Under the pieces are notes generated by a model. That model ran no database searches and was not told the DNA's origin. It saw only the letters and a program-made list of their open reading frames with translations. This document shows, in pieces, positions 15,356 through 64,000 of a stretch of DNA of 64,000 bases. Numbering within the stretch: position 1 is the first letter of the stretch; every line of letters starts with the position of its first letter. A program made the translations under genes and the position numbers. This stretch comes from Thraustochytrium sp. TN22 (taxonomy: Eukaryota; Sar; Bigyra; Thraustochytrida; Thraustochytriidae): the NCBI GenBank assembly GCA_013306675.1, contig JABLUY010000002.1, positions 372,001 through 436,000 of the forward strand, read 5' to 3'.

Positions 15356-16726
15356 ATGGGCGCGGCTGCGCGCACGCTGACGGCCGCGCTGGCGGCCGTG
15401 ACTCTGGCGGCGGGCGCGACGCAAGGCGCCCACGGAGCACGAGCGAGCATGCCTCGCGTCGAGCTGGTGGAACTTGACTGGCGCGCGACCAAGGACTCGG
15501 CGACGGCGTGCGACGGGAGCGAGTGCCTGGGCCACGCGGTCTGGTGCGTGCACGACCAGCGCGAGGTGCTGCTGCAGGCCAGGGCGTTCTTTGGGGAAGT
15601 TCGCTTCGAGCTGCTGGACGCCGAACCGCGCGACGGCAGTGCGGACGTTGAGGAGAACGAACCGCGGCCTTCCGCCGCCTACTGCCTGCTGGGCGAGAGC
15701 AGCGACTCGCGCCTGCGCTTGGAGGTGCTGCGCGGCCTGCGCGACGACGCAAAGCCCAGCGCTGTTGTGGAACGTCTCTTCAACGCCACCAACGAGAAGA
15801 GTGCCAGACTCGCGCGCTTCTTGGACAATATGCACCAGCACTTTTGGGTCGCGGTCGGCACGAGCTGCCATACCTCGCTCGCCTTCTCGCCGTACGGTGA
15901 AAGCTGCGTTGCCATCCGCCCCGCGCACGGCTCGCCGGCCCTGGCCCACCCGGACAAGCTGCGCCTCGTCGTGCATCGCGAGCAGTTCACCTGGCGCGGC
16001 CCGGTCTTTCTCGCCCTTGGCCTGCTGCTCATCCGTGCGGCGCCCTGGCTGAGCGAGCTTACGCCGCTGTACTACGCGACCGGTACCACCTTGGGCGTTG
16101 CCGTCAGTGTCTTCATGCTCACCTGGTTCACGCTGCGGCGCGTCACCTCGTCCCGGAACTCCGCCTGGATGGCCCTCGCCGCGCAGGCCCTCTTTGGCGC
16201 CTTCTTCACCAACGTGGCCGACACCATCATCGAGAACTACCAGAACGAGCTGGTCATCTACATCTTCCTCTCCGCCCTCATCAGCCTCGGCGTCTCGCAC
16301 TTCATGCTGCGGGGCAAGCCCAGTGGGGCGGTTCGTGACATTGTGCGCATTGCCATCCAGTTCGCTGGCGCGGCCTTCATCTTCAACGCAACCCGCTCGC
16401 TTCAGTGGTCTATCGCGGCCCTCGCGATTTGGTTCGTCAACGGCACCTTTCTCCCTGCCGTCTACGACCGCCTCGGGAGACTTCACCGTTGGATCATGCC
16501 CAACGCAGGCATTGCCCGCATGCGCACCAAGATTGATGGCTCGCGTCTCCTCTCCGAAGAAGAGTACCAGGCGCAGGCGCAGCGGTCCACCGCGCGTGAG
16601 ACCGACAAGCTCTTCAAGTCGCCCGGATTTCGCAAATGGCTAGAGAAGAACCACGGCCGCATCAACATGGGCCCCGCCGAGGAGGACGACAACGACGATG
16701 CGCTCTTATTCGACGATGACGAGTGA
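15356..16726 (+). CDS. NEMP: NEMP-family nuclear envelope integral membrane protein
   Basis: 456 residues, intronless. It starts with a signal peptide (residues 1 to about 28, TLTAALAAVTLAAGATQGAHG) and a lumenal domain of about 190 residues, with several cysteines. Five or so membrane spans then occupy about 220-375. The first spans flank LYYATGTTLGVAVSVFMLTW, which matches the YYxTGxxLG signature of the NEMP/TMEM194 (DUF2215) family. The cytosolic or nucleoplasmic tail has LLSEEEYQAQAQRSTARETD and FKSPGFRKWLEKNHGRI, the usual NEMP tail pattern, and ends in an acidic cluster. NEMP proteins sit in the inner nuclear membrane and stiffen the envelope; plant homologues are PNET2. Family assignment rests on motif and topology. 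Confidence 0.8.
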   Translation: MGAAARTLTAALAAVTLAAGATQGAHGARASMPRVELVELDWRATKDSATACDGSECLGHAVWCVHDQREVLLQARAFFGEVRFELLDAEPRDGSADVEENEPRPSAAYCLLGESSDSRLRLEVLRGLRDDAKPSAVVERLFNATNEKSARLARFLDNMHQHFWVAVGTSCHTSLAFSPYGESCVAIRPAHGSPALAHPDKLRLVVHREQFTWRGPVFLALGLLLIRAAPWLSELTPLYYATGTTLGVAVSVFMLTWFTLRRVTSSRNSAWMALAAQALFGAFFTNVADTIIENYQNELVIYIFLSALISLGVSHFMLRGKPSGAVRDIVRIAIQFAGAAFIFNATRSLQWSIAALAIWFVNGTFLPAVYDRLGRLHRWIMPNAGIARMRTKIDGSRLLSEEEYQAQAQRSTARETDKLFKSPGFRKWLEKNHGRINMGPAEEDDNDDALLFDDDE

Positions 16727-17335
16727 TTGGAGTGGGCAAGCAAACATGCAAGTGAGCCGACACACGATCGACCGACCGACCGACCGAGTGTGTGAGCGAG
16801 TCAGCGAGCCCATTTGAAGGAAGTGGCGAAGTATCGGATGACCAGCGCACTCCAAATCGCCAACGAATCCTCATCTCGACCTGGAGCAAGCTGCGAGGGG
16901 CAGGACGAGATCGTTCCTGGCCAAGAAGAGCCTACTGCGAGCCGGTCTCTCGCGCAAACCTGATCGCTCGCAAGATACGATACTGCCGCCAGCCCGCCAG
17001 CCTGCCCGTCCAGGCAGGCAGGCGCTTGTCCAGTCTAAAACGCTTCGGAATACGCCGGCCAGACGAAGAAGTGAGGCAGCAAGCAGATCCGTCAACACTC
17101 ACGCACGCAGATTGAACGCCACCGAACTCAGAACTGACCTTATCTTACCGTGATGCATCCTTCCTTTCTTTGAGACTTTGTTTTGTTCAAATTTGAAGAG
17201 ATGCTCGTGTCCGGCGGCCGACCTGTTGAACAAACCAACCTGGCCCTGGCCTAGTGAGTGCCGAGGCCAGCCTGGGTGTTGTTGCCAGCGGCTCAAAGCC
17301 CGGATGATAAAAATAGACGTCTCAGGGAGACTTCT
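16727..17335. other. Gene-poor spacer before the repeat array
   Basis: No gene recognised. Near 16766-16786 there is a short GACC tetramer run; around 17150-17200 the sequence is locally AT-richer than the surroundings. Confidence 0.5.
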
Positions 17336-17339
17336 TCAG

Positions 17340-18570
17340 TGCCAGTCAGAGTGCGGTGATCGCGGCATGCAAGCACCTATGAGCAGCTGGAAGGCCTGGT
17401 CGACATATTTGCGGGCGGCCACTATCCCTCGATGTGGCGCGCAATCTGACTGCGAGGGCGCAGCCGGGCAGCTCAGCTCACCTCGTAGCCAAGGAGGCGG
17501 CGCAGCGGCGCGAAGGCGGGCTTGCTCGCGTCCGAGCAGATGGCACACGCAGATCACTTCACGAGGGCCGTCGACCCGAGGTCCACCGCCTGCGGCAATG
17601 GCGAGGAATGAAGAAACTTAGCTGCTACATTTTGTCGAGCTTGCACAGCACACGGAGAGACTTTGTCTGGGCAGCGAGTTGGGGGGGGTGATTGCCGGAG
17701 GCAATCGGCCTGCGGCGCGGTCCTCAGAGAAAGATGTGAGGGCGGCGCTGCGGCTTACACGCAGAAAAAAGGAGAGAAGAAGCCACAGGAGTCTTGACCC
17801 TCTGTCTCTCCTGATTGTGCAAAGGGAAGCAGTGGGGCGACTTGCCCGGTCGGAAGCGTCGAGGCGAAGTCGCTCACCTGTGTGGAGGCTGGTGCACGGC
17901 AATGCGGCGTTTCGCACAGCGACGTGGTGCGGGGTGCGCCCCAAGCGAGAAATGCCTCGTTCTCGTCACCTCGGGGTGCGGATTTATGCATGCCCGTGCC
18001 GCTCTTTTGTTGTAAAGCTTGAGTATCGAGATCTTCCAGCACACATCAGCCGGCACCCTCAAGTTGCAGTCGCCGCCCAGCTTGGCAAGATGCATCAGCG
18101 GGCCATACATAAATGGTGCTGTCCAGGCTGCTGCTGTGGCTCGAGGAAGCCGTTCGCGTGATGACCGAGGGGCACTCCTGGAAGGTGACGGTGCCCACCT
18201 GGCGCCAGAGGCAGGCGGCCGTATCGTTCGGCTGTGATGACGACTCGGCGACGCCGTCACGGTCCTCTGGGACTTCAGCCGGGCGCGGCTGGCTCGGGCG
18301 CGCGCATCCACTCTGCGCCTCATGTTTGACGCGGCTTGCGAGACGGTGTGGTGTCCATCCACATTGGTGTGTAGTGAGCGGCGATGGGGTTGTTTGTAGC
18401 TCGGCCAGAGCGGGCGGGCCCCGGTGCCAAGGGCGATGCTGTCACTGGCAAGTAAGTAAAAAGAGCAGGATCCTTCCTGCCAGGGGTCGCCGGAGGATCC
18501 CATACATGGTCCAAACGATGAGGAAAGGTGCTGTGAGGTGCCAGCGATCCTGAGGCTTGATGGTCTCGGC
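17340..18570 (-). repeat. Inverted, decayed copy of a ~1.5-kb repeat unit (blocks W', Z', Y')
   Basis: Read on the minus strand, this stretch aligns in order with 19.26-20.38 kb. Block Y' is about 18090-18560 (GACCGCTGGCACCTC-like start, TCTGGCGCCAGGTGGG). Block Z' is about 17690-18080 (GAAACGCCGCATTG, GTGAGCGACTTCGC). Block W' is about 17405-17620 (GCCGCAGG, CGGGTCGACGGCCC, AAGTGATCTGCG). The copies are diverged by many substitutions and small gaps, and no copy carries a long intact frame. Block X of the unit is missing here; an AT-rich island takes its place. Whether the unit is a dead gene family, a mobile element or a satellite cannot be decided from the sequence. Confidence 0.8.
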
Positions 18571-18600
18571 GGAGAAGCTTTGAGAGCGGCTTAAAGGCGC

Positions 18601-18831
18601 GCTCGTAATTTTACGCACCTTTCATCGCTAAGATAAAACCAAGTTTGAAAGAAAATTTTATCCCATTTGATAACAATTTATGAGAATCCTTTTGAAATAA
18701 AATTTTTTGAAAGTATTCGAGAAACGAACAAATTGAAAATTATTCAAAATATAATCATATTTGGTATTAAATTGTATATTTCTAATTAAAATAGGTAAAT
18801 TTGAAGTCAAAATTGATAATGCAAAATTGTC
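18601..18831. other. AT-rich island at the inversion junction
   Basis: About 230 bp of strongly AT-rich DNA (for example TTGAAAATTATTCAAAATAT near 18731), in sharp contrast to the very GC-rich window. It sits between the inverted repeat copy and the first direct copy. No frame of note, tRNA or terminal repeat was recognised. Candidate explanations are an organelle-derived insert, a scar of an AT-rich element or an AT-rich spacer of the array. Confidence 0.85.
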
Positions 18832-18848
18832 AGCCAGCAAGTCCCGGC

Positions 18849-20382
18849 ACTCAAGGTCAAGTACGGCGGCAAGGATGGCAACGTGCACGACATGACCGGC
18901 GAGGTGCTCACCAGCTACTACAGCACCGTGACCTGGCCGAGGCCGCAGGCCAAGGGACAACCTGGATTGGCCATATGACCGCCTGATCGTACGGTACACC
19001 TGGCCGACCACGGCCGGGCAGGCGATGTCGTCACTGGCTGCCGGCTCCAGCCCCTTGACCAGCGCCGCAGGCTAGGCCAGCTGGCAGACCAAGATTAGCT
19101 CAACCATCTTCTCTCTCTCGTGCTAGTACTTGCCGAGCAGGTGGCGCGGGGTAGGGCCGCCGTGGGCGAGCCCGAGCCCGCCGAGCATCCAGTCTAACAA
19201 AAATAGACAAAAGGAAAGGACCAAATACGAGCGGGCTACGAGCGGGCATTTCAGCCACTCTCAAAGCTTCTACGCCGAGAGCAAGCCATCTCAGGACCGC
19301 TGGCACCTCCCAGCAGCTTTCCCCATCGAGTGGATCATCTCTGGAACCTCCCGGCGACATCTAGCTCAGCTCTCAGCAACAGCGGTGACTTCGGCTCCCC
19401 GCTCTGGCCGAGCTACCCCATTGCCGTCCACTACACCAGCGTGGACACCGCCTTGCAGGCTGCGCCTCACAACAGGCGCAGAGTGGACGCGCGCGCGAGC
19501 CAGCCGCGACCCGCTAATGTCTTAGCAGTCCGCCGCCGCCGTCGCCGAGGCGCGAGAGGGAAGCAAAGCCGCCAGCATAACCGCACGATGAGGCGCCTCT
19601 GGCGCCAGGTGGGCGACATCACCTCCCAGGAGTACCCCTCGGTTATCACGCCCTCCTCCAGCCACAGCAGCAACATGGGCAGCAACATTTTTGCTCCGCC
19701 GCTGTCAAGCTCCTGGCCGACCTGGGCGCCTCCTGGAATCTGAGGGTGCCGCTGGTGTGTGCTGGTAGATCAACTCTCAAGGCTCTTACGGCAAAGAGCG
19801 TACAGGCAAATCCGCGCCCCGAGGCGACGAGAACGAGGCAACCTCCGCCCGGGACGCAGCCTGCACCACGTCGCTGCGCGAAACGCCGCATTGACGTGCA
19901 CCGCCTCCTCACAGATGAGCGACTTCGCTTCGACGATTCCGACCAAGGCAAGCCGCCCCTCTACTGCTCTCTGCGCAAGCAGCAGAGGCAGAGGGTACAG
20001 ATTCCTGTGACTTCTTCTCTCATTCTTTCTGCAAGCCTGCCGCAGCGCCGCCCTCACTACCTCCTCTGAGGGCCGCGCCGCTGGCCAAATGCCGACGGCA
20101 AGCAATCCCTCAACTAGCTTCCCAGACAAAGTCTCTCCGTGTGCTGAGCAAGCTCAACAACTAGCAGATAAGTTCATCGTTTGTTTCTCGCCATTGCCGC
20201 AGGCCGTCGACCACGGGTCGACGGCCCTCGCGAAGTGATCTGCGAGCGCCGCCAGCTCGGACGCGAGCAAGGCCGCCTTCGCGCCGCTGCACCGCCTCGT
20301 CGGCTACGAGGTGAGCTGCACGGCTGCGTCCTCGCAGTCAGATTGCGCGCCACATCGAGGGATTGTGGCCGCCCGTACCAAC
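18849..20382 (+). repeat. Direct copy 1 of the ~1.5-kb repeat unit (blocks X, Y, Z, W)
   Basis: Block X opens with ACTCAAGGTCAAGTACGG at 18849 and recurs at 20383, a period of 1534 bp; GGCGATGTCGTCAC at 19021 recurs as GGCGACGTCGTCAC at 20561, an offset of 1540. Block Y is about 19260-19740, Z about 19740-20130 and W about 20180-20382; Y, Z and W also match the inverted copy. All frames are broken by stops, so nothing here is annotated as a protein-coding gene. Confidence 0.8.
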
Positions 20383-21850
20383 ACTCAAGGTCAAGTACGG
20401 CGTTAAGGACTGCATCGTGCACGACACCACCGGCAAGGGGCTCCCCACCTACTACAGCACCGCAACCTGGTGTCAGACTGCAGGGCAAGGGACAGACGGG
20501 AACGGCCCTACGACCGCCTAACCGTACTACCGGGTACATCTGGCCGACCACGGCCGGGCAGGCGACGTCGTCACCGGCTCTAGAGCCCGTACGCCGCACC
20601 AATCACGCCTCTGGGCTATCAGGATTCCCCCGCGCCTTTTCGCATCGAGTTGACCGCGTTTGAGATCCCCTGGCGACCTCTCTCTAGCTAGCCTAGCCTA
20701 GCTACAACTACGGCGACTGCCTCAATCTTGCCGCCTCGCTCTGGCCGACCTACTCGATTGCCGTTCACTCCAGCAACGTGGAAATAAATCTCCTTGCCAA
20801 CTGCACTCGCCGCCATTCTGCGCCGAGTGGAGGCGCGCACCAGCTGTCTCGCGCAGCTTACGTTTCAGAGGTTCGCCGGCGGCAGCGTCGTGGGTTGGGC
20901 CCAGGGGCAAGGAAGTCGCCAGCATAACTAACAACTGCACGGTGAATTTGGCGACAGGCCAGCAACAGCACCTCGCCGCAGTACCCCTCTGAGGACCCGT
21001 CATGCTATCAAGGGATGACGTGCGACAGGGTCAGAGGGCGGAAGATGAACAAGAGCGACGCCTGGATGCCCGCCCCGTCGGAAGCCTCGTGTGACGCGCC
21101 CAGCTCGGGCGACCTCAGGGCGACTCTGGGCAAGCGGCAAAATCTCATCGAGACCTAGCTCGAACGCTCAACTACTTCGCATGCTGCCGTGAACGCACCC
21201 CGTACCTAATCGCGCAGCTCCACGAGCTGCTTCCCGCGCGGCTCTGCGCCAACCAAGGCGCTCACCTCTTCGTACCCCGTACTAAGGACCTAGGCAGCAG
21301 CATCACTGCCCAGGCCTCGCAACCACCAGTCTGGCGCCAAGCCGCTCCGCGGCTTCGGTAGACTCGCAGCTCCGGTTCGACCTGACTTACAGCTCTCGAA
21401 CGTTATTACAACCCTTTTCACCCACCCCGTTCCTCGCCCGGCCCATTCGGCCGGCGCGGGGGCGGGGCCTTGTCGCGTTTCGAAGACCTGTCCATCTTTC
21501 CGCTTTCGACTGGATCAGTGCTACATCACTTGTTTCATGCAGACGGCCGCCTCGGGTCACAGAGGCGACCAGGATAACACGTTTCACAGCCCGCTTCTCT
21601 CGAGCAACTGGGCGAGCTGAGCAACAGGGCGGCTCCCGCATGAGAGGGCGCCTCAAAAGTGTGCTGGGAGGTTGTCTTTTCGGCAGATAGTGGCACAGGT
21701 TAATCCGCGCCCTGTGGAGAGGGAAATGAGGTAAGTCTCGTCCGTGATGCAGCATGCGCCATGTCACCGTGCAGAAAGCCGCACTGGCGCGCACCAGCCT
21801 CCTCACAGATGAGTGACTTCGCCTCGACTTTTCCTCCTATACGGTTCGAG
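20383..21850 (+). repeat. Direct copy 2 of the ~1.5-kb repeat unit, more decayed
   Basis: Block X (20383 to about 20600) is well conserved with copy 1. Block Y (about 20605-21000) is recognisable by TCGCATCGAGTTGACC, CGCTCTGGCCGACCTACTCGATTGCCGTTCAC and the segment around 20940. About 21000-21640 has no clear match. Block Z returns at about 21650-21850, where CTCCTCACAGATGAGTGACTTCGC differs at one position from the same stretch of copy 1 near 19908. The longer spacing between Y and Z suggests an insertion or independent sequence within this copy. Confidence 0.7.
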
Positions 21851-22398
21851 CGACGCGACAGCAAGCTACGAGCACGCGCCGGGCACCTCCTTCTTTGCCA
21901 CTCGCGAACTGAACGTTGCGACGTGGTTGACTTCACGTTGTTCTTGGCTTGCCAGATGCCCATGTCAAGCTTGCGTGCGTGGTGGACGGACGGGGCTCAC
22001 ACTCGACTCCATGGATCTGGTTTTCCAGGCGAACCCACTCCGTGCTTCCTCGAAACTCAGTTCGAGTTTGTTTTGAAATTGAGACTTGGTCGTCGTCCGC
22101 AACAATGTGACCCGCGCATTGCGGCAACCGTCTAGTCTACACTTGAACGCGGCGAATACCACCACATCCAGAGTGCAGGAATCGGAGCGAGTCTGGTCAA
22201 GCAGAGCTGAACAGCTCCCTTTCGCCTGTCAGGCTTGGTGCATGCATTCGCCGCGAGGAGGCTGGTGAGCACACCACAAAGGCAAATCTGCCCAGGTGCC
22301 AATCAAAGTCACACGCTGTGTCACTGACACCCTGCGGCTCCGGCATATACCACTCTCACTTCTCATGTTTGCTGGGACTCGGAGCTGCTACTACTACT
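21851..22398. other. Spacer between the repeat array and SRP72
   Basis: About 550 bp next to the SRP72 stop codon. No gene, RNA or repeat block was recognised. Confidence 0.6.
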
Positions 22399-24477
22399 CT
22401 ACCTACGGCCCTTGCGGCCACCCTTCTTGGCAACGGCGGGCTTGGGTTTGGCGGCGTTGGTCCGCGCGTCGAGGCGGGCGGCGTCCTTGTCGGAAACGTT
22501 GGCGCCGGAGCCCTGGGCGCCGGTGAGCTTGGCCTGGCGGCGCTTACGAGCCTTGAGTGCGGCCTGGCGCATGTTCTTGGGGATCCAGCGCTCTGGATCG
22601 GGAAGGTTCTTGGTCGGGTCGAAGCCGTCGCCCTGGGCCTCCTTGAGAGCGGCGAGATAGGCCTCGCGGCGCTTGGTGCGCTTCTTGAGCTCCTTCTTGC
22701 GCTTATTCTCGGCAATGCGGAGCTTGCGGGTGGGGTCGTCGGCGACGGGGGAGCGTAGGCCGACGTCGCTGGCGGCGGCGGCGCTGCGCACGCGGCGAGG
22801 GCGAGCCTTGGCAGGGCGGAAGCCGGCCTCGAGGGCGTCGACGTCGACGTCCTGGACGCCGGCGGGCATGGGCAGGGCCTGCGCGCGGGCGTCCGCGGCG
22901 TCCGCATCAAAGCGGGCGGCGCTCATGACGTAGGCAGCGAGGGCCTCCATGCGCAGGTCGGCGTCGACGGGGCCGAGACGGCCAGCGAGGATGGCGTCGA
23001 GGTCATCGGCGGCGGCACGGGCATCGCCACGGCGGAGCGCTAGGCGCGCGCGCAGAAGCGCGAGGGCTGCGTCGCTGCCAGCGTTGCTGGCGCTGGCGAG
23101 CACATCGTCGGCATCTTGGTCATTGCCGGCGTGGTGGCAGAGGCGCAGGTCGGCCGCGAGGACGGTGAGGTCCCGATGCAGGGAGTCGTCACTGCGCAGA
23201 GTCCGGAGCGCGGCGGCGAGGTCGCCGGCCGCGAGCTGCGACTGCGCGAGCGCGAGCGCGAGGTGCGCGGCGCGAGGGGTGACGAGGTCGGGGCTGGCAG
23301 CGAGCGCCTCTTCGAGGCGCGTCTGGAGCAAGGTGTCGCGTTCCGCGGTCTTGCCCTGCTGGTCCAGGAGCGCGGCCTCCACGAGATCGGGCCCAGCGAG
23401 ATCCGGATAGGCGGTGCGCGCGTCGTCGATGAGGGCCTGACACTCGCGCGCCTTCTTCATTTTGAGGAGCAAGAGAGCGCGGTTGACGTGGATCGCGGCG
23501 CGCGTGGCGCGCGGGAGCGCCTCGACGCTCTCCGGGTCGGCAGCGTGCGCGCGCATGCGCTTGAAGGAGTCGAAGACCTCGTGGTCACCGCGCAGCGCGA
23601 GGAGGTTGTTGGCGGCGACGGCGGTGACGGCCTTGTCAGAGGGCCGCGCGGCGAGCGCCTCGCCGAGCAGGTCGAGTGCGGCGTGCGCGGCGTCCTGGCG
23701 GTCGGCGTCGGCGGAGCCGGCGCCGAGCGCGGCCTGCATGGCGAAGGCACGCTGCACCTTGAGCACGGCGAGGTCGGCAGCGACGTTGGCATCGGTGAGG
23801 CGCTCGTCGGTCTCGAGGAAGGCCTGGCCCTCGGCAAGCGCAGTCTCGAGCACCTCGGCGGCGGCCTGCGCGTTGCCGACGGCGAGGAGCGCACATGCCT
23901 TGTTATACTGCAGCTCGAAGGCGTCGCCGGCGTCGCGGCCCTGCAGCAGGCCGCCGGAGAGCACGTTCAAGACGCCATCGGTGTCGCCGGTGAGCAGGTT
24001 GGCGGCCACGAGGTTAGCCACGAGCTCGTTCATGGCGCCCCCCTTGGCGCCGCCGACGAGGTCCGTGTAGATATCGCGCGCCTCTGCGAACCTGCCGAGG
24101 CGGTAGAGCAGCTGTGCGCGCAGGTGGGCGGCTGCCCGGGGCTGCGCGTCAACGCCCTCGTCCATCTTGCGCTCCTCCTCGGTGCCCTGGTCATGCTGAC
24201 CGTCCAGCAGCGCGAGCGCCTCCTCGTTCGCCTTTTGCTTGTACAGCACGAGAGCGCGCTCCACGCGGAAGCCGTGCTCCGCCGCCACGCCGGCCGCCGC
24301 CTCGAGTTTGTTCTGCCTCAGCAGGCACACGCACTTGGTGCGCTGCACCTCGCGCTCCGCCGCGCCGGCGCCCGCCTTAAGGATCTTCTCGCACACCGCC
24401 ACGGCCTTACCGTCCTGGCCCTTGCTCTCGAACTTGCGCAGCCGCTCCAGGAGCGCCGCCGCCTCCTCCTCGCTCAT
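22399..24477 (-). CDS. SRP72: Signal recognition particle subunit SRP72
   Basis: 692 residues, close to the usual length for SRP72 (human about 671). The protein opens with MSEEEAAALLERLRKFESKG and consists mainly of TPR-like helical repeats. Near the C-terminus is PDPERWIPKNMRQ, matching the family's DPERWLP SRP-RNA-binding signature, followed by a Lys/Arg-rich tail ending KKGGRKGRR. SRP72 pairs with SRP68 on the SRP RNA to target ribosomes making secretory or membrane proteins to the ER. The gene is intronless and is divergent from the ABC1-kinase gene. The start is taken as the first Met, as it directly precedes the conserved N-terminal helix. Confidence 0.92.
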   Translation of the reverse strand: MSEEEAAALLERLRKFESKGQDGKAVAVCEKILKAGAGAAEREVQRTKCVCLLRQNKLEAAAGVAAEHGFRVERALVLYKQKANEEALALLDGQHDQGTEEERKMDEGVDAQPRAAAHLRAQLLYRLGRFAEARDIYTDLVGGAKGGAMNELVANLVAANLLTGDTDGVLNVLSGGLLQGRDAGDAFELQYNKACALLAVGNAQAAAEVLETALAEGQAFLETDERLTDANVAADLAVLKVQRAFAMQAALGAGSADADRQDAAHAALDLLGEALAARPSDKAVTAVAANNLLALRGDHEVFDSFKRMRAHAADPESVEALPRATRAAIHVNRALLLLKMKKARECQALIDDARTAYPDLAGPDLVEAALLDQQGKTAERDTLLQTRLEEALAASPDLVTPRAAHLALALAQSQLAAGDLAAALRTLRSDDSLHRDLTVLAADLRLCHHAGNDQDADDVLASASNAGSDAALALLRARLALRRGDARAAADDLDAILAGRLGPVDADLRMEALAAYVMSAARFDADAADARAQALPMPAGVQDVDVDALEAGFRPAKARPRRVRSAAAASDVGLRSPVADDPTRKLRIAENKRKKELKKRTKRREAYLAALKEAQGDGFDPTKNLPDPERWIPKNMRQAALKARKRRQAKLTGAQGSGANVSDKDAARLDARTNAAKPKPAVAKKGGRKGRR

Positions 24478-32178: not shown

Positions 32179-32269
32179 TTCCCCCCGAGGGGATCGAACC
32201 CTCGACCATTTGATTGGTCATGCATTCGATGCATAAGAGTCAAACGCTCTACCGCTGAGCTAGGGAGGA
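32179..32269 (-). tRNA. tRNA-Lys(CUU) with intron, copy 1 (inverted)
   Basis: On the minus strand: acceptor TCCTCCC pairs with GGGGGGA, D arm GCTC-AGCGGTA-GAGC, anticodon stem TTTGA/TCAAA, T arm GAGGG-TTCGATC-CCCTC, discriminator A. The anticodon loop reads CTCTTA, giving anticodon CTT (Lys), and is interrupted after position 37 by about 19 nt (TGCATCGAATGCATGACCA). A T5 run follows downstream as the Pol III terminator. The exon bases are identical to those of copies 2-4. Confidence 0.93.
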
Positions 32270-32576
32270 TCGGGCCAGAGCCCATCGAATGGCGAAGCTA
32301 ATCGCCCTTTTCCCGCATTGATAGACCATTTCCTGGTGCCATTCATCTTTCATGTGAATCTCGTGAACGTCCCGCGGCGTGCATCAAGCGAGCTGAATCA
32401 GCTGATGTTCCTCTCATGCGCCCGCCCTGGGCTTAGCCTACAACCAGTGAACAGCAAGTGGCAGGCCCCCCTCAGGCCGTGCAAAGATGTATATAAACGT
32501 GAGGGCAGGAGGTGCAGGCAAGCAGGAATGCGGGAAACCGGTGATTCAGTTCGCCATTCGATGGGTTTAGGCCCTA

Positions 32577-32668
32577 TCCTCCCTAGCTCAGCGGTAGAGC
32601 GTTTGACTCTTATGCAATGCAAGGCATGACACATCAAATGGTCGAGGGTTCGATCCCCTCGGGGGGAA
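32577..32668 (+). tRNA. tRNA-Lys(CUU) with intron, copy 2
   Basis: Same cloverleaf as copy 1 with identical exons; anticodon CTT. The intron, about 20 nt after position 37 (TGCAATGCAAGGCATGACAC), differs from the other copies. A long T run (from about 32676) terminates transcription. Confidence 0.93.
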
Positions 32669-32958
32669 GCGCAAGCTTCTTTTTTTTTTTTCTGCACGGC
32701 TGCAGTCTGCATTCGTGGTCGGTACGTCTGCATCACTTTTTTCAAGCGCCGTCGTTCACTTCAAGCAGAGTAGGGCGCACAGGCATGTGGCCGGCTTGTT
32801 CGAACGCGCGCGTCCTTTTTGTCCTGTCCATTGACTGTTTCGTGGTCCTGCTGATCGCCGTGCATCTACTTACAGAATTATATAGGTGCCATCATCAACC
32901 GGTCTAACATCGCGGGAAACAGGTGATTCGATTCGCCACTCGATGGGCCTCGGCCCTA

Positions 32959-33050
32959 TCCTCCCTAGCTCAGCGGTAGAGCGTTTGACTCTTATGCGAT
33001 GCAAAGCATGACACATCAAATGGTCGAGGGTTCGATCCCCTCGGGGGGAA
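32959..33050 (+). tRNA. tRNA-Lys(CUU) with intron, copy 3
   Basis: Exons identical to copies 1, 2 and 4; the intron (TGCGATGCAAAGCATGACAC) is two changes away from copy 2. A Pol III T run follows at about 33062. Confidence 0.93.
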
Positions 33051-33365
33051 GCACAAGCTTCTTTTTTTTTTCTTCCTTTTCTGCACGGCTGCAGTCACGT
33101 CCGCAGTCGTGGTCGGTACGTCTGCATCTCTTTTTTCAATCGCCGTCGTTCACTTCAGGTAGAGTAGGGCTCAAAGGCATGCGGCCGGCTTCAAGTTGTG
33201 CGAAAGCGCGACGTCCTTTTTGTCCTGTCCACTGACTGTTCAAGTTTCTTAGTCCTGCTGATCGCCGTGCAAATGCGTACACGATGATATGATCGCCAAC
33301 ATCAACCGGCCTATCATCGCGGGAAACAGGAGATTAGCTTCTCCACTCGATGGGCCTTGGCCCTA

Positions 33366-33456
33366 TCCTCCCTAGCTCAGCGGTAGAGCGTTTGACTCTT
33401 ATGCATGCAATGCATGACCAATCAAATGGTCGAGGGTTCGATCCCCTCGGGGGGAA
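33366..33456 (+). tRNA. tRNA-Lys(CUU) with intron, copy 4
   Basis: Exons identical to the other three; the intron of about 19 nt (TGCATGCAATGCATGACCA) is closest to that of the inverted copy 1. A T run at about 33468 serves as terminator. Confidence 0.93.
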
Positions 33457-53779: not shown

Positions 53780-56700
53780 TCATCGGAAGTTTCGCTCGCG
53801 GCCCTGCTCGTAAATCTTCGCCAGCGTATCCTGCAGCGTGCCCTTGTCCTTTTCGCGGTTGTAGACCTTGAAAAGGCGAAGGGCCATGAGAGCGTCCTCG
53901 ATGGAGTCATGCGTCTTGCCCTGAATGTCTTGGCGCAGCACGACCGAAGACAGAAAGGATAGAGAGAGCATCCGGTTCTCCGGGATGCGGAAGAGATGCA
54001 CGGTGTCGCGGACCTGCTCGGGCGGGATGAAGATGTTGATGACGTGAAAGTCCTGGCGCAAGCCATGGCCCACAAAGATGCAGCCCCTGTCCACGAGGCG
54101 GCGCAGCTTCAAATAGGCAATGCGAAGCGGTACGAGGTGGTGCTTGGACATGCTTGGGTCAAGGTCGCCCGGCACGAGTCCGGAGAAACGCGTCAGGTAG
54201 TCCACCACCTCGTCCGGTGTCCGGATGTAGTCATCCATGAAGACACGCTCGTCCTCCCGCGTGCACGAGACGCGAGCCAGGCTCAGTTGCGCCTCTTGCG
54301 TGACCACCTTGCGCCCGTCGCTGTTTGTGTAAAACTCCTCCGTTGAAAGCGCCACCATCTCGCAGTCAATCGCCACGAGGTCGCCCTCCCGGGGCAGCTC
54401 GTCCAGTGCAAGATGCGAGAAGGCGCGACGCCCCGGCGCGTGGCTCACGGACGGCGCGTGGAAGATCTCCTTGTCCGATAGTGAGGTCTCCACAACGGCC
54501 ACCGGCGCGGGCGCGGGGTGCCCTGCGGCGCGCCGCCGCCGGTACACGAGCAGGCTTGGGTTGCGCCAGGGCGCACGAAAATCGCGCACCGAACGTTCGT
54601 CCTCCACGCGCTCAACGCGAAAGTCGTTAAAGAGGTACCAAGCATCGCCGTCCGAGGCCGGCGCCCCGGGCGCGCGCGAGACGTACTCGGCTGGCACTTT
54701 GATGTGCGCCACGGTGTGGTCTGTGGGCCCAATGTGCGAGACGACGGCCACCAGATCGAAGATGTCCCCGCCACCGGTGCCGGTCTCGGCATCGTCGCCA
54801 CGCACCGCCTCGACCGCGGTGCTGGCGTCGGCGCCGTCAGCACCGCTCGCCTTGGCGCCGGCCGGGCGCACGCGGAAGCTGGCCAGCACAAAGGGATCGA
54901 CGTCCCTGTCCTTGTCCTTGTCCTTCGTCTGGCCGGTTTGGCGGAAGAGCGGCAGGTAGACGGCGCGGTTCTCGTGCGAGGCGGCGTTGAGCACGAGCAC
55001 GTCCGAAAAGGCGGTCGCGGTCCGCGTCTGCACGACGGGGATCTGATCGCCCTTTTGCTTGCTCCACAGTCGCGTCTTGTTGCTCTGGTTGAAAGTCTTT
55101 TTCAGCAGCGAGAGAAAGGAGAGCTCGGGCGGCTTGCGACCCATGGCCGCGGCCTTGCTGAGCTCCGCCGGGTAGGCGATGTCGAGCGCAAGCGAGTGAC
55201 TCGTGAGCTGCGAATCACTCACGCCCGGCACAAGCCACTTTTCGCGCGTCACGAGGCGTACGCCCATACACCGCGTCACAGCCTCCTTGAGCCCCTCGTG
55301 ACTGCGGCTAAAGTGCTCCAACAAGAAGCGCGCGCACGCCGCCGTGCGCTGGTCCACCTCAAGCGGGCTCGGGTCCAGCAGGCCAAACGCCTGCACGTCC
55401 GGCGCGAGCCGCAAGGCACGCAGCAGGTTGCGCGCCTCGCACACGCGGTCGCGCGCCGGCACGCGCTGCACCTGGTCCAGCATGTGGAAGAGGAAGCCGG
55501 CCTCTGTGGCGAGGCACTTGGGGTCCAGTGACACGTACGGTAGCAACAGGGTGCGCAACTCGGGCGTGAAATAGAAAACTTGCAGCACCGGGTTGGCGTA
55601 CGAGTTGGGCAGCTTGCCCTCGAGGCCGGCAAAGCACGTCGGGTTGTACCCGGAGTAGTCCGCCATGGGTGCGCCGCGCGCCAGCACCAGGCGCGGTTTC
55701 CTGTACTCGTCTGGCACCAGGGCGGCCGCTGCGGCGGCCGCGGCGCTCGCCGCGCCGGTCACGGCGTCCGGGTCGTGCAGGTCCCCGCCACTGGGCGCGG
55801 CGCCGGCGCCGCCACGCTGGAAGGGGCCAACGCCGGCGCCGGGCCCAGCCTTGCGTGGCGACACGCCGGCCGCCGCGAGCCGGCGGCTCGGCGAGGCGGG
55901 CGGTGAGACGCCGCCGCTGCCCAGCGGGTGGTGTTGGTCGTCACGCGCGCTCAGGTAGGCGCGCGTGGAGGTCTCCTTGCCGAAGAGCAGCGCCTGCGGC
56001 ACGGGGAACTCATCGGACTGCGTCTCGATGAACTGACCGGGGAAGTCCTCACGCGTCTGCGCGCGTGCCAGCAGGCCTGGCCAGATCTCGCGCGGCTCCT
56101 TCTCGGTGGCCAGCTTATCCATGAGGAGCGGCGTCAGGTCGCTGCACAGCGGGTGTCCGGCAGCCTCCACGTCGGCCACATCGCAGCTGGCCAGCATGGA
56201 CTGGCCCACCAGGTCAAACGTGGCATCGTCCCAGAAGCGCAGGTCGTCCATGCACTTATCCGAGGCAGCGAAAGAAGGGGGCGGCGCGTCCGGGAGCGGC
56301 TCCGCATAAATGTTAATGTTGGGCCGCGGCTCGTGCGCCCAAGCCTCGTCGTCCGTCCACAGGTGGACGACGCCGCCAGCGTCGCACATGGCTGCGGCGC
56401 GCCCCACGTGGCTCACGCTCATGCCTGTCACCATGCCCTGCACGGTGTGCATCTGGTCGGTCTGCTCCATATGTGCCGAGGCTACGTCGCCGTGCAGGTC
56501 GGCGTAGACGCTCACGTTGCCCATCTCGCTCACGAGGAGCGCGCGCCCTGGCGCCGGGTTGTCCTCGGTGGGCGTCAAGAAGCGCACGAAGCGCGCGCCC
56601 ACCTGCAGCGCGCCGGCGGGCCGCACGAGCATGCGCACGTCAAAGAGTTTCACGAAAGGGTCCGGCCGGCCGCCGGGGCCCAGGCCGCACGTGACCAGCT

Positions 56701-57358
56701 TGTTCTCGTAAAGGTCCATGTCGGTGACGCCGCCGCCGTGCGCCGACAGCAGGCTACCGACCTTGCCACCAGCGCGAAGGTCGACGAGGCCAATCTGCCC
56801 TCGCGCGGAGTCACCTCCGTCCCTGCCGCTGCCACTGCGGCCTCCGCCACCACAAACGATGGCGCCCTGCGGCGTGGCGCACATGACCTCCACGCCGTGG
56901 TCATAGACAGCGCTGCGGAAGGTGTGCAGGTAGTGCGACTCGGCGCGCGAGAGGTCGAGCTCGTACAGGCTGCTTCCATTGCTGGGCGCGTTGCATCCCA
57001 CGACAAAGCGTGTGGAATCTAGCGCCAGCGTACTGGTGAGCTCGCGGCCCTCGCGCGTCGAGTGCAGCAGCTGCGCGCTTGCGTACGGCGCACCGCCCAG
57101 ACCGTGAATGCAAACGTTCGTGGCGCTTACCGACAGAATACCGGCCAGTCCGAGGCTGGTCATCTGCCGCACGGCGCTTGGGTGCGCCTTGAAGCTGGAC
57201 CACGCCGCGCCCAGCGCCGACGCGTCGTACACGCTCACCAGGCCAGTGGACCAGCCCACGAAGACCGCATCGTGCACCGCCCCAAACCCCACGTTTGTCG
57301 GCACTGCCGCGCCCGCTACGCGCGCGTCCGCGTCGCAGCCCACTTCGAACCAGTACAT
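53780..57358 (-). CDS. PAN2: PAN2, catalytic subunit of the PAN2-PAN3 deadenylase
   Basis: 1192 residues from the Met at 57358 (MYWFEVGCDADARV); the open frame extends beyond it but crosses a CCG repeat and the MCTS1 gene. Domain order is typical: N-terminal WD40 propeller (about 1-400), PAN3-binding linker, inactive ubiquitin-hydrolase-like fold beginning NPTCFAGLEGKLPNSYANPV with LRTLLLPY (the catalytic Cys is absent, as in all PAN2), and a C-terminal DEDDh exonuclease (about 994-1192). Catalytic residues are visible as AIDCEM (about Asp998/Glu1000), HGLRQDF (about Asp1103) and THDSIEDA (about His1150/Asp1155). PAN2-PAN3 begins shortening of mRNA poly(A) tails in the cytosol. It is divergent from MCTS1 and convergent with the SPICE1-like gene. 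Confidence 0.95.
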   Translation of the reverse strand: MYWFEVGCDADARVAGAAVPTNVGFGAVHDAVFVGWSTGLVSVYDASALGAAWSSFKAHPSAVRQMTSLGLAGILSVSATNVCIHGLGGAPYASAQLLHSTREGRELTSTLALDSTRFVVGCNAPSNGSSLYELDLSRAESHYLHTFRSAVYDHGVEVMCATPQGAIVCGGGGRSGSGRDGGDSARGQIGLVDLRAGGKVGSLLSAHGGGVTDMDLYENKLVTCGLGPGGRPDPFVKLFDVRMLVRPAGALQVGARFVRFLTPTEDNPAPGRALLVSEMGNVSVYADLHGDVASAHMEQTDQMHTVQGMVTGMSVSHVGRAAAMCDAGGVVHLWTDDEAWAHEPRPNINIYAEPLPDAPPPSFAASDKCMDDLRFWDDATFDLVGQSMLASCDVADVEAAGHPLCSDLTPLLMDKLATEKEPREIWPGLLARAQTREDFPGQFIETQSDEFPVPQALLFGKETSTRAYLSARDDQHHPLGSGGVSPPASPSRRLAAAGVSPRKAGPGAGVGPFQRGGAGAAPSGGDLHDPDAVTGAASAAAAAAAALVPDEYRKPRLVLARGAPMADYSGYNPTCFAGLEGKLPNSYANPVLQVFYFTPELRTLLLPYVSLDPKCLATEAGFLFHMLDQVQRVPARDRVCEARNLLRALRLAPDVQAFGLLDPSPLEVDQRTAACARFLLEHFSRSHEGLKEAVTRCMGVRLVTREKWLVPGVSDSQLTSHSLALDIAYPAELSKAAAMGRKPPELSFLSLLKKTFNQSNKTRLWSKQKGDQIPVVQTRTATAFSDVLVLNAASHENRAVYLPLFRQTGQTKDKDKDRDVDPFVLASFRVRPAGAKASGADGADASTAVEAVRGDDAETGTGGGDIFDLVAVVSHIGPTDHTVAHIKVPAEYVSRAPGAPASDGDAWYLFNDFRVERVEDERSVRDFRAPWRNPSLLVYRRRRAAGHPAPAPVAVVETSLSDKEIFHAPSVSHAPGRRAFSHLALDELPREGDLVAIDCEMVALSTEEFYTNSDGRKVVTQEAQLSLARVSCTREDERVFMDDYIRTPDEVVDYLTRFSGLVPGDLDPSMSKHHLVPLRIAYLKLRRLVDRGCIFVGHGLRQDFHVINIFIPPEQVRDTVHLFRIPENRMLSLSFLSSVVLRQDIQGKTHDSIEDALMALRLFKVYNREKDKGTLQDTLAKIYEQGRERNFR

Positions 57359-57449
57359 GGCGCCTTGCTCGGCCGACCCTGCCGATCCCGCCGCTAACCC
57401 CGCCGACCCCGGCGATCCTGGCCGCGCCGCTGCCGCCGCTGCCGCCGCT

Positions 57450-57496
<47 letters not shown>

Positions 57497-57809
57497 GCGC
57501 CGGCCGCCGCGCGCAGCTCGCTCTGCCGCGGCTTGGCAAAAAAATTCAAAAATCTGGCTCAGCTCAGGCTGCCGCGGCCAGTTGCGCCGCTTGGCGCGCG
57601 GCCGTGGCGCCTGGCAGCGACAAGCCCGACTGTGACAGTGACGTGACGGTGACTTGCTGGCTGAGAGAGGCTTCAAACACCTCAGGCGGGCGCGCGAGCG
57701 GGCGCGGGCTGCGGCGGTGGCGGCGGCGGCGGCGCAGCGACAGCGGCCGGTGGCGGAGCGCAGCGCGGCGCGCGGCCAGGCCAAGCCAGGCCAGACCAGG
57801 CCAGGAAGG
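57359..57809. promoter_or_regulatory. Bidirectional PAN2/MCTS1 promoter spacer with (CCG)n
   Basis: 451 bp between the opposite starts. A long (CCG)n/(CTG CCG)n array spans about 57430-57497, directly upstream of the PAN2 start. Nearer MCTS1, GACTGTGACAGTGACGTGAC at about 57629-57648 resembles the recurring CTGNCAGTG word. CCAGGCCAAGC-type short repeats precede the MCTS1 ATG at about 57775-57805. Confidence 0.45.
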
Positions 57810-58456
57810 ATGTTCCGCAAGTTCGTGGCGAGCGAACAGATTTCCACGCAGACACCCGTCAAGTCGTCCGTGCAGCGCGGGCTCACGAAGAACATCGCGG
57901 ACCAGTACCCGGAGCTGGATCCGGAGACGCTCGAGGAGCTGCTGCCCAAGAAGACGCAGGTGCTTGTGGCCAAGTGGTAGGTTAGGTTAGCGTTGGAGTG
58001 CGCGAACGCGAGGCGATGGAGCTGGCCGGATCGACATGTGGAGGACTGACGCTTTGCTCGTTGCTTGCTCACAGCCACGACCATGTCAACCTGATCGTGT
58101 CGAGCGAGACCAAGGAGGTGCTTTTCTTCAACCACCGCGACGGCCCGCAGTACCCCACGCTGAGGTTATTGTACAAGGCGGGCGACTTTATGGCCAAGGT
58201 CTGGGTGGACGCCGGCGCCATCAAGCCGCTCATTGGCGGCGCCGACCTCATGTGCCCCGGCATTCGGGGTGAAAAGCTCGCGGACATCCCGGCCGACACG
58301 CCCGTGCAGATCATGGTCGAAGGCAAGGAGCTCCCGTTCGCCATCGGCATCACCAAGCTCTCCGCCGCCGACATCAAGGCCTCTTCCTCGGGCGTCGGCG
58401 TGGAGATTCTTCACAGCCTAGGCGATGGGCTCTGGAACTGCCCGACTGTGGACTGA
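57810..58456 (+). CDS. MCTS1: MCTS1 (MCT-1), PUA-domain translation factor, two exons
   Basis: Exons 57810-57976 and 58075-58456, joined across a 98-bp GT-AG intron (GTAGGT...CTCACAG), encode 182 residues, almost the same length as human MCTS1 (181). The splice falls within the codon for the conserved Cys of CHDHVNLIV, as needed for the family's RCHEHIEIL segment. The N-terminal domain starts MFRKFVASEQISTQTPVKSS and includes LLPKKTQV. The PUA domain has EVLFFNHRDGPQYPTLRLLY, AIKPLIGGADLMCPGI and the tail GVGVEILHSLGDGLWNC, all classic MCTS1 features. MCTS1 acts with DENR in recycling 40S subunits and in reinitiation. If the intron is retained, the frame ends at once. Confidence 0.95.
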
Positions 58457-61735: not shown

Positions 61736-62816
61736 CCTCCAGGGGATCGCCCTCGCGCGCGCGCAGTACTGCAGAGGTAGTAGCTAACCTAGTGCTGAGG
61801 CTCGCAGCTCGCGCCGTCCCTCACGCTCGCGCTGGGGCGCGAGCGCGCTTCTCAGCTAGCGCTCGCCGGCGAGCGGGCGAGCCGCTGCCGCCGCCGCGGC
61901 CCTCAGCTGTACGAGCCGCCGCGCGCTGCGCCTGCTGCCTTGCCTCGCCCGTCGCACCGGTGCCGAATTGCATTTGCCTGGCGTGGCGTGGCGTGTGGCG
62001 GCGCGCAAAAAGTCATCGCAAGCCTCGGACTCGCGAGCAGCGAGCAAGGAAGCGCACGGCGCTGGCGTGCGCGGCGCGGCGGGCAGCCAGCCAGCTAGCC
62101 AGCCTCAGGCGGGGGAGGCGGAGTCTGGCCGAGGCGTGGGCGGTCGTACTTCATCTGAATCGGCAGCCGTGTCATCGATGTGACATGTACATGAGTTAAT
62201 TCCTGCGGGAGCCAAACATGAAGCCCACCCGTCGACTGACTCGGACTGTGACTGAATGGAGACGACCACCGAATTATCTTTGTCGGGCTCCCCGGAGCAA
62301 TCTCCAAGCATGCACGAACTTGAATGGCTCTCGACAAGGCTTCGGACAAGCTGACGTGAGGAGGTTTCACCCCAAGGGAACCACGGCAACAACCACATGA
62401 CTCGGAGGGCATCGTTCGAGCCTCCGAGCACCGCCGACCGTGACCTCCAAGAAATTCATTCACTGTGGCGGCCAGCAAGCAAGATGATCTTGGGACTGAC
62501 GCCGGCCAGCCACCGGGCACGCGGGCGCCCTGACATTGAGCCCCGACGGCAGCTGCAGCCACCGCGGCCGCCCCGGCCCCCGTCTCCGACGCCTAACGTT
62601 GATCAGAAGGAGCGATGAGGCGCAGCTGAGAGCTCAATCAGCGCCTCGCGTCGGCCGCAGCAGGGCAACAAGGAGAGACCGCGGCGGCTCCGCGCCAGGT
62701 CCGCAAGCCGCGCGCGCGGCACGGCAGGCGGCGCAGCAGGGCGCGGCGCGGGCGAGCGCGGTCGGGCGAGGGTCGGGCGAGGCACAGGACCGGCCGGCGT
62801 CCCTCACGCCGCCAGG
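61736..62816. promoter_or_regulatory. Divergent spacer between the flavoprotein gene and Pelota
   Basis: About 1.1 kb without a supported gene. CTGACTCGGACTGTGACTG at about 62236 is another copy of the recurring upstream word. The last 180 bp before the Pelota start are CG-rich with GGTCGGGCGAGG duplications at about 62761-62781. Confidence 0.4.
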
Positions 62817-62921
62817 ATGCGGCTCGTGAAGAAGAGCGTGTCCGCCAAGGACGGCGAGGGCCTGGTGAGTTTGTTGCTTGTCGTCCTCGCGCGGCGCGCC
62901 GGGCAGGCTGTGGACGGCGAC

Positions 62922-62959
<38 letters not shown>

Positions 62960-64000
62960 GTGAGGTAGAAGGAGAACTGACCCGACGCGACGCGACGCAA
63001 CGCGACGCAACGCAACGCGATGTGAGGCGCTGCAGGTGGTGCTGTGCGCGGAGGATGGCGAAGACATGTGGCACGTGTACAACCTCATCTCCAAAGGCGA
63101 TCTGGTCAAGGCGAGCACGTTCCGCAAGGTGGTCAAGGAGGGCACGACGGCGGTCTCGTCGCAAAAGGTGCGTCTGACCATCACCATCGTGGTGGAGGGG
63201 GTGGACTTCGACCCGGACGAGTGCGTGATCCGCTTGAGCGGGCGCAACCAGACCGAGTCGCCGCACATCAAGCAGAATGCCTACCACACCATCGAGCTAG
63301 AGCCGCACCGCAACTTCACCATCCACAAGACAAGCTGGGACACCATCTTTTTGGAGCGTCTCGAGACGGCCTGCAACCCGGTCAAGCAGGCACAGCTCGC
63401 TGCCGTCGTCATGCAGCAAGGACTCGCGCACGTCTGCCTCATCACGGGCCACATGACCATCTTGCGCGCCAAGATCGAGCGAAACATTCCGAAGAAGCGC
63501 GCAGATGGCAAGATCCACCGGGAAAATGTCAACAAGTTCTTCGAGATGGTTCTGCAGGCACTCATGCGCGAAGTGGACTTCTCCATCGTCAAGAGCGTGA
63601 TCATCGCCAGCCCAGGCTACGTGAAGGATGATTTCTTCAAGTACATCCAGACCGAGGCGGTAAGTAGAGCAACAAGCAGATGCGGGGCGGGGGAGGAGGA
63701 GCAGGAGGAGGACGGGAGACTCACGCTTCATCGTACACAGGGAAAGCGGCCCGACCTGAAGGTGCTTTTGCAAAACAAGGATCGCTTCGTGCTCGCGCAC
63801 TCTTCGTCCGGCTACAAGCACGCCCTGGACCAGGTCCTGGCGGACCCTGGGCTGCAGTCGCAGCTTCTAGATTCGCAGGCGGCCAAGGAGGTTCGCGAAC
63901 TGAATCGGTTCTTTAAGATGCTCAACGAGAACTCCGAGATGGCTTACTACTCCTACCGCCATGTGGCGTCCGCACTGGAAAAGGGCGCCATCGACTCGCT
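62817..64000 (+). CDS. PELO: Pelota / Dom34 ribosome-rescue factor (5' part; runs off the window)
   Basis: Three exons are visible: 62817-62864, 63036-63659 and 63741 onward. The introns are GT-AG, 171 bp (GTGAGT...CTGCAG; with a GGC array) and 81 bp (GTAAGT...CACAG). Both junctions keep frame at codon boundaries. The protein starts MRLVKKSVSAKDGEGL, then VVLCAEDGEDMWHVYNLISK, matching the Pelota N-terminus. The N-terminal Sm-like domain has HTIELEPHRNFTIHKTSWD, and the eRF1-like domain 2 has AAVVMQQGLAHVCLITGHMT and RNIPKKR. Domain 3 starts near KPDLKVLL-type sequence and is cut off at the window end. Pelota works with HBS1 and ABCE1 to split stalled ribosomes in no-go and non-stop decay. 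Confidence 0.95.

Follow-up and report, generated by a model that had tools for sequence, protein, structure and literature searches.

A candidate centromere with an AT-rich core and polarised retrotransposon shells in Thraustochytrium sp. TN22

What kind of locus is built from repeats that are partly inverted around a short, AT-rich stretch of DNA in an otherwise GC-rich genome? To address this question, we analysed a 64,000-nucleotide stretch of Thraustochytrium sp. TN22 (positions 372001-436000 of contig JABLUY010000002.1, C222 in our numbering; genome of 37.9 Mb in 453 contigs), which we will henceforth refer to as the window and to which positions refer unless another contig is named. The window has a GC content of 65.7%, and a cluster of repeats fills a 5.7-kb intergenic gap in it (16727-22398). 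An earlier note on this DNA had described the cluster as a decayed array of a ~1.5-kb unit that could be a dead tandem gene family, a lineage-specific mobile element or a large satellite. Judging from the sequence, we propose instead that the locus is a candidate centromere (with a probability of roughly 0.77), in which an AT-rich core would be enclosed by polarised shells of retrotransposon remnants.

Two LTR retrotransposon families in the cluster

Self-comparison of the region between 16 and 23 kb revealed a continuous inverted match between 17412-18607 and 20375-19237 (75% over 1219 columns), three direct repeats with offsets of 1534, 1535 and 1540 bp (18841/20375, 18940/20475 and 18993/20533, respectively) and weaker direct matches (19251-19640/20571-20989 and 19648-19940/21543-21834). 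The repeated, partly inverted blocks that the earlier note had reported are therefore real, as are their spacing of 1534-1540 bp, the inverted diagonal it had named as a test and the recurrent sequence pair it had placed near 19908 and 21797 (CTCCTCACAGATGAG at 19905 and 21799; GACTTCGC at 19921 and 21815). The ~1.5-kb unit, by contrast, is only apparent. By comparing the window with 20 loci from other parts of the genome, with which it has little sequence in common outside the clusters, we delimited two modules, namely B with 372 bp and, after it, A with 1141 bp; both are long terminal repeats (LTRs) that insert separately.

Module A is the LTR of a Ty1/copia element, given that a copy on contig C67 has an LTR pair, a target duplication and a copia-type frame. 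Specifically, this full-length element (C67, 62265-70185) has LTRs at 62265-63404 and 69046-70185 that are identical at 1136/1140 positions, carries the target duplication GCGTA on both outer sides and sits in an older A copy. Between the LTRs, a single open frame runs along the plus strand of A (read in two pieces), with Pfam matches to Retrotran_gag_2 and rve (integrase) below the cut-off in the first piece and to RVT_2 above the cut-off in the second; the order gag, integrase, reverse transcriptase is that of Ty1/copia elements. Neither protease nor RNase H was among the reported matches. The module starts with TACGAGCGG and finishes with CCGCCCGTA, so that its termini read TACG...CGTA rather than the LTR-typical TG...CA; some LTR elements are known to deviate in this way, with TA...TA termini. 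We also considered a DNA element with inverted ends (TACG.GCGG), which we dropped in view of the LTR pair, duplication and frame on C67. Perfect 5-bp target duplications were found in 4 of 8 A copies (chance ~0.002 per case), and two of the copies that failed are both ends of the single C67 element.

A second family of LTR retrotransposons supplied module B, again as its LTR. The module starts with TGTCAGCC and ends in CTGACA, or nearly so, the sequences at its flanks recur in the manner of LTR pairs, and three pairs bracket elements by their coordinates. The element at locus L011 (contig C33, 4113-6672; 2.56 kb) has LTRs identical at 346/346 compared bases, a 5-bp target duplication and one open frame of 592 amino acids with a zinc-knuckle-like motif detected by eye (best Pfam match only E 0.17); it appears to be a recently inserted, short form that may carry gag only. 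In the 8.15-kb element at L017 (contig C75), 328/338 aligned LTR bases are identical and a 5-bp target duplication is present; 4,663 interior bases are masked, while the readable interior (~1000-2490 of the locus) repeats internally and gives repetitive frames. The third element (L013; 3.8 kb, interior mostly masked) has a 5-bp target duplication and identical LTRs at 55/55 readable bases. Overall, perfect 5-bp duplications flanked 8 of the 13 B insertions tested (9 of 13 with one end shifted by 2 bp), again with a chance of ~0.002 per case.

With both modules defined, the cluster in the window can be read from left to right. An old A copy on the minus strand (17412-18607; 75% identical to 19237-20377), its 5' end towards the core and without a perfect target duplication, is followed by the AT-rich core itself (18608-18827; 220 bp, 78% AT). 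Next comes a solo B LTR on the plus strand (18828-19199; TGTCAG...CTAACA), also with its 5' end towards the core, between AAAAT target duplications at 18823-18827 (the final core bases) and 19200-19204 (both on the plus strand); the sequence suggests that 19200-19225 may be a remnant of the core severed by this insertion. The initial 11 bases of an A copy (19226-19236, plus strand) lie directly upstream of a young plus-strand A LTR (19237-20377), which is 98-100% identical to eight copies on contigs C153, C331, C409, C67 and C111 and has no target duplication (2/5 bases match). Further right on the plus strand are older, partial copies of B (20382-20579; 81%), of the 5' part of A (20571-20989; 63-66%) and of the middle part of A (21543-21834; 65-76%). 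We also observed that a B-linker-A stretch (18828-19742) is common, at 94%, to the window and to positions 3417-4301 of L018 on contig C409, while the left neighbours of B differ, which suggests exchange between clusters.

Of the identities offered by the earlier note, the mobile element was therefore the right one for the repeated parts. A dead tandem gene family finds no support, as the modules are LTRs and all five frames in the cluster lack a Pfam match. Broken frames are to be expected of LTRs.

AT-rich cores and mirror polarity across the genome

We searched the genome with four DNA queries (modules B and A, then one diverged copy of each), whose match counts are lower bounds, and found A/B pieces on 26 contigs, exclusively in compact clusters; the third and fourth searches added no contig. 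The proposed check, by which dispersed copies would mean a mobile element and local ones a decayed array, thus had a mixed outcome: the copies are dispersed over 26 contigs, yet on any one contig they span no more than ~13 kb.

The element missing from the earlier description is the AT-rich island at 18608-18827, which parts the inverted from the direct copies (with the inverted A on its left and the first B on its right) in a centromere-like arrangement. We scanned 247,334 unmasked 200-bp intervals from the window and 25 other loci, and found one such island each in 19 sequences from 19 contigs (best interval 74-82% AT), with the highest interval outside the islands reaching 58.5% AT. Trimmed cores (n=19) measured 142-292 bp (mean 216, standard deviation 38) and were 74-84% AT (16-26% GC). 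Given that the 19 cores had no 6-8-mer in common beyond shuffles, and that a genome search at E up to 10 (which skips very common words) matched the window core only to itself, it is composition rather than sequence that recurs. Several target duplications were drawn from the core, both for B (AAAAT in the window, AAATA in L011, TTTTT in L012 and ATTTT in L013) and for A (ATGCA in L024). A core was visible on 19 of the 26 contigs bearing A/B pieces, at a density of ~1 per 2.0 Mb.

Three other ideas about the cores were rejected. A yeast-like dinucleotide signature (AA/TT up, TA down) was present in the cores, but TA is even lower in the rest of the window and AA/TT is little less enriched there. 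An organelle origin, examined for the window core, was set aside as it has no second match in the assembly. Insertion targeted to tRNA genes was dismissed given that no tRNA was found in any of 18 core loci and that the window's four tRNAs lie at 32-33 kb.

To quantify orientation, we counted A/B matches of at least 90 bp within 5 kb of a core at 18 loci, merging collinear pieces (the nineteenth locus, L045, has only 55 bp of B and was left out). The LTR 5' end pointed towards the core in 57/63 copies (21/23 for A and 36/40 for B), although both LTRs of an element, and any copy nested in another, entered the count separately and are thus not fully independent. When only the nearest copy on each side was considered, the proportion was 29/33. 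By locus, 13 of 18 had no exception and 16 of 18 had a majority towards the core, with one tie and one locus against. In the L011 B element, the frame is read in the direction away from the TGTCAG end, and in the C67 A element it follows the plus strand of A, meaning that transcription of the elements, if any, would lead away from the core on both sides. Such polarity can be explained in two ways, and both fit: integration may be oriented, following a direction established at the core, or insertions whose transcription enters the core may be lost. Parallels for oriented integration are provided by Tn7, whose insertion orientation follows replication direction, and by Tf1, whose target sites depend on a polar fork barrier, both as described in passages of PMC5371812. 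The few results of our searches of open-licence papers contained no report of comparable insertion polarity around a core, which is weak evidence of absence.

A candidate centromere and its alternatives

Under the centromere reading, the working part of the locus would be the core of ~220 bp, about the size of one nucleosome with linkers, which would be picked by its composition and not by a fixed sequence. It would be the seat of CENP-A chromatin, which would bind CENP-C and the kinetochore. The two LTR retrotransposon families would integrate within or at the core, duplicating 5 bp of the target, and their insertions, mostly reduced to solo LTRs, would then decay into the repeat shell. As the insertions lie in mirror image, with the LTR 5' end towards the core, any element transcription would lead away from it. 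A short AT-rich core, a gene-poor shell, recurrent retrotransposons and a frequency of ~1 per 2 Mb together make a centromere the best match among the chromosomal sites that we considered.

The genome also encodes candidate partners for such a core. It has a CENP-C gene on contig C254, with a Pfam match above the cut-off (this family also matched 4 of 14 prokaryotic controls, none above the cut-off), and a stretch of the encoded protein resembles the CENP-C motif. A histone H3 variant (L046, contig C132) has a divergent tail and a loop 1 that exceeds that of this genome's ordinary H3s by two residues. Its two best PDB matches are H3/CENP-A chimeras (131.9 and 129.6 bits), followed by an ordinary H3 (128.2 bits), so by sequence this variant appears to be CENP-A-like.

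Among known systems, the point centromere of Saccharomyces cerevisiae (CDEI-CDEII-CDEIII) similarly has an AT-rich core that is roughly nucleosome-sized and not conserved in sequence. The flanks here are LTR ends, however, and we found no conserved flanking boxes (no 6-8-mer beyond shuffles in the 19 cores; CDEI and CDEIII themselves were not searched). In Schizosaccharomyces pombe, Candida tropicalis and Komagataella, centromeres have a central core between inverted repeats, which, as here, are common to several chromosomes; the inverted repeats in our clusters are separate LTR insertions of differing age and not paired arms. Other stramenopiles offer two contrasting designs. Diatom centromeres are short and AT-rich (passages of PMC7082073 and PMC12227449), and those of the stramenopile Phaeodactylum tricornutum are short low-GC stretches with no described sequence motif. 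At 16-26% GC our cores fall within the diatom limit of ~32% GC or less (given in part of PMC12227449), but at 142-292 bp (mean 216) they are shorter than the ~500 bp or more of low GC found there and have polarised LTRs around them. Centromeres of the oomycete Phytophthora sojae, also a stramenopile, span 211-356 kb and are rich in the copia element CoLT (excerpts of PMC7082073). We likewise found Ty1/copia elements concentrated at candidate centromeres, in clusters occurring about once per contig, but these measure a few kb with a 0.2-kb AT-rich core (5.7-kb gap in the window, at most ~13 kb elsewhere) rather than hundreds of kb. In the fungus Mucor circinelloides, a core of ~1 kb lies in a gene-free zone among transposable elements, as here, but has a shared 41-bp motif and no CENP-A (part of PMC9089191), whereas we found no shared motif and a CENP-A-like gene. 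Finally, the AT-rich cores of Saccharomycopsis schoenii measure 26-34 kb, and two of these cores have LTR elements (excerpts of PMC13148404).

Functional evidence from a related lineage cuts both ways. In Aurantiochytrium limacinum, a plasmid stays circular, with 96.8% segregation, when it carries a 500-bp low-GC segment from a diatom, but two other low-GC diatom segments and the yeast CEN6-ARSH4 were less effective (both reported in passages of PMC12227449), meaning that low GC helps in the thraustochytrid lineage but is insufficient alone. The latter result is one of several observations that weigh against the centromere reading. Another is that pairwise scores between cores were slightly above those of dinucleotide shuffles (mean 27.8 vs 23.3, best 43 vs 38). 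In addition, 6 of the 63 copies were reversed (one each in L015, L024, L026 and L027, and two in L020); the exceptions in L015 and L024 are young copies of A, which means that insertion the other way round is possible. Nor does the absence of any contig with two cores (19 cores on 19 contigs) count for much: at this fragmentation only 0.87 same-contig pairs are expected by chance (P(0) ~0.42), and we therefore discarded it as proof of one core per chromosome.

Lastly, 7 of the 26 contigs with A/B pieces have no core in the readable stretch, some of which is partly masked or at a contig end. These are C75 (L017, with the full-length B element; 4,663/10,000 bases masked), C321 (one solo B), C408 (L038; 1,068/4,001 bases masked), C43 (L043; 734/2,401 bases masked, plus 2 kb clear), C199, C23 (0.7 kb at the contig end, where, by eye, B faces an A-like start head to head) and C207. 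Six further pieces from C23, C207, C199, C321 and C43 contained no island (highest 50.5% AT). The A or B pieces in L043, L038 and L044 (the last on C199) are decayed (65-82%), and could be dead centromeres or stray insertions.

How, then, do other explanations account for these data? The islands might be another kind of rare site (a strong replication origin, a fork-arrest site or a nuclear attachment site) that retrotransposons use as a safe haven, which we consider unlikely. Forks diverging from an origin in the core would yield mirror polarity, fork-arrest sites can be retrotransposon targets and several transposons orient by replication direction (the last two points from passages of PMC5371812). 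On the other hand, the 64-kb window has just one island, and replication origins are usually far denser than the ~1 per 2 Mb found for the islands. A centromere doubling as an origin would suit both accounts.

Alternatively, retrotransposons may merely favour AT-rich DNA and nest in one another, the islands being ordinary, functionless pieces of AT-rich intergenic sequence. Some B target duplications are indeed AT-only and copies nested in copies occur (L011, C67), but we regard this as improbable: no comparable island lies outside the clusters in the 247,334 intervals scanned, the islands are alike in length (standard deviation 38 bp) while unrelated in sequence, and an AT preference leaves the polarity unexplained. 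Moreover, other target duplications are GC-rich (CCACG, CTGCT, CGCTC, CGGCA) and represent insertions in the shell. The satellite envisaged in the earlier note, i.e., a local, decayed tandem array with a 1.5-kb unit, could draw on the 1.53-kb offset that recurs between two B+A blocks in the window and on the 94% stretch in common with C409. It is in effect refuted by target duplications and full-length parent elements, and A and B are also found apart with sharp ends, leaving it a negligible chance.

Returning to the centromere reading, a broader version holds that thraustochytrid-type centromeres are single-nucleosome-sized cores set by composition, to whose edges two retrotransposon families home with mirror polarity (either oriented by the kinetochore or diverging forks, or left in this arrangement since transcription into the core would kill it). 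We give this version an even chance; if true, core-less decayed clusters (e.g., those on C43, C408 and C199) would be dead centromeres. Our searches of open-licence papers gave no account of a centromere native to thraustochytrids or labyrinthulomycetes (a weak absence), and a search for chromosome-level thraustochytrid assemblies gave nothing relevant among the papers listed. A review of thraustochytrid methods mentions, in the passage concerned, only yeast-derived centromere sequences in use (PMC8467673), and the Aurantiochytrium plasmid work borrows yeast and diatom sequences (part of PMC12227449). If the centromere reading is correct, the genome would offer 19 short, directly testable candidate centromeres and a stramenopile design intermediate between the short, AT-rich centromeres of diatoms and the long ones of oomycetes, which are rich in copia elements, while mirror polarity would be a natural experiment on how the kinetochore is respected during integration or transcription.

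Gene neighbourhood of the cluster

The cluster is flanked by convergent frames. The left one (plus strand, ending at 16726) belongs to the NEMP family (Pfam match above the cut-off), and the right one (minus strand, ending at 22399) is SRP72-like (Pfam match below the cut-off). Eukaryotic proteins encoded in the window comprise NEMP, a family-A DNA polymerase and an MFS protein, whose top database match is from Hondaea fermentalgiana (64% identity over 99%). Four tRNA genes (Arg-TCT, two Lys-CTT and Ile-TAT) lie within 1.3 kb at 32179-33456, and their length of 91-92 bases each may reflect small introns. At 53780-58135, on the minus strand, a long frame has a later part that appears PAN2-like by eye (WD40, hydrolase-like and exonuclease parts).

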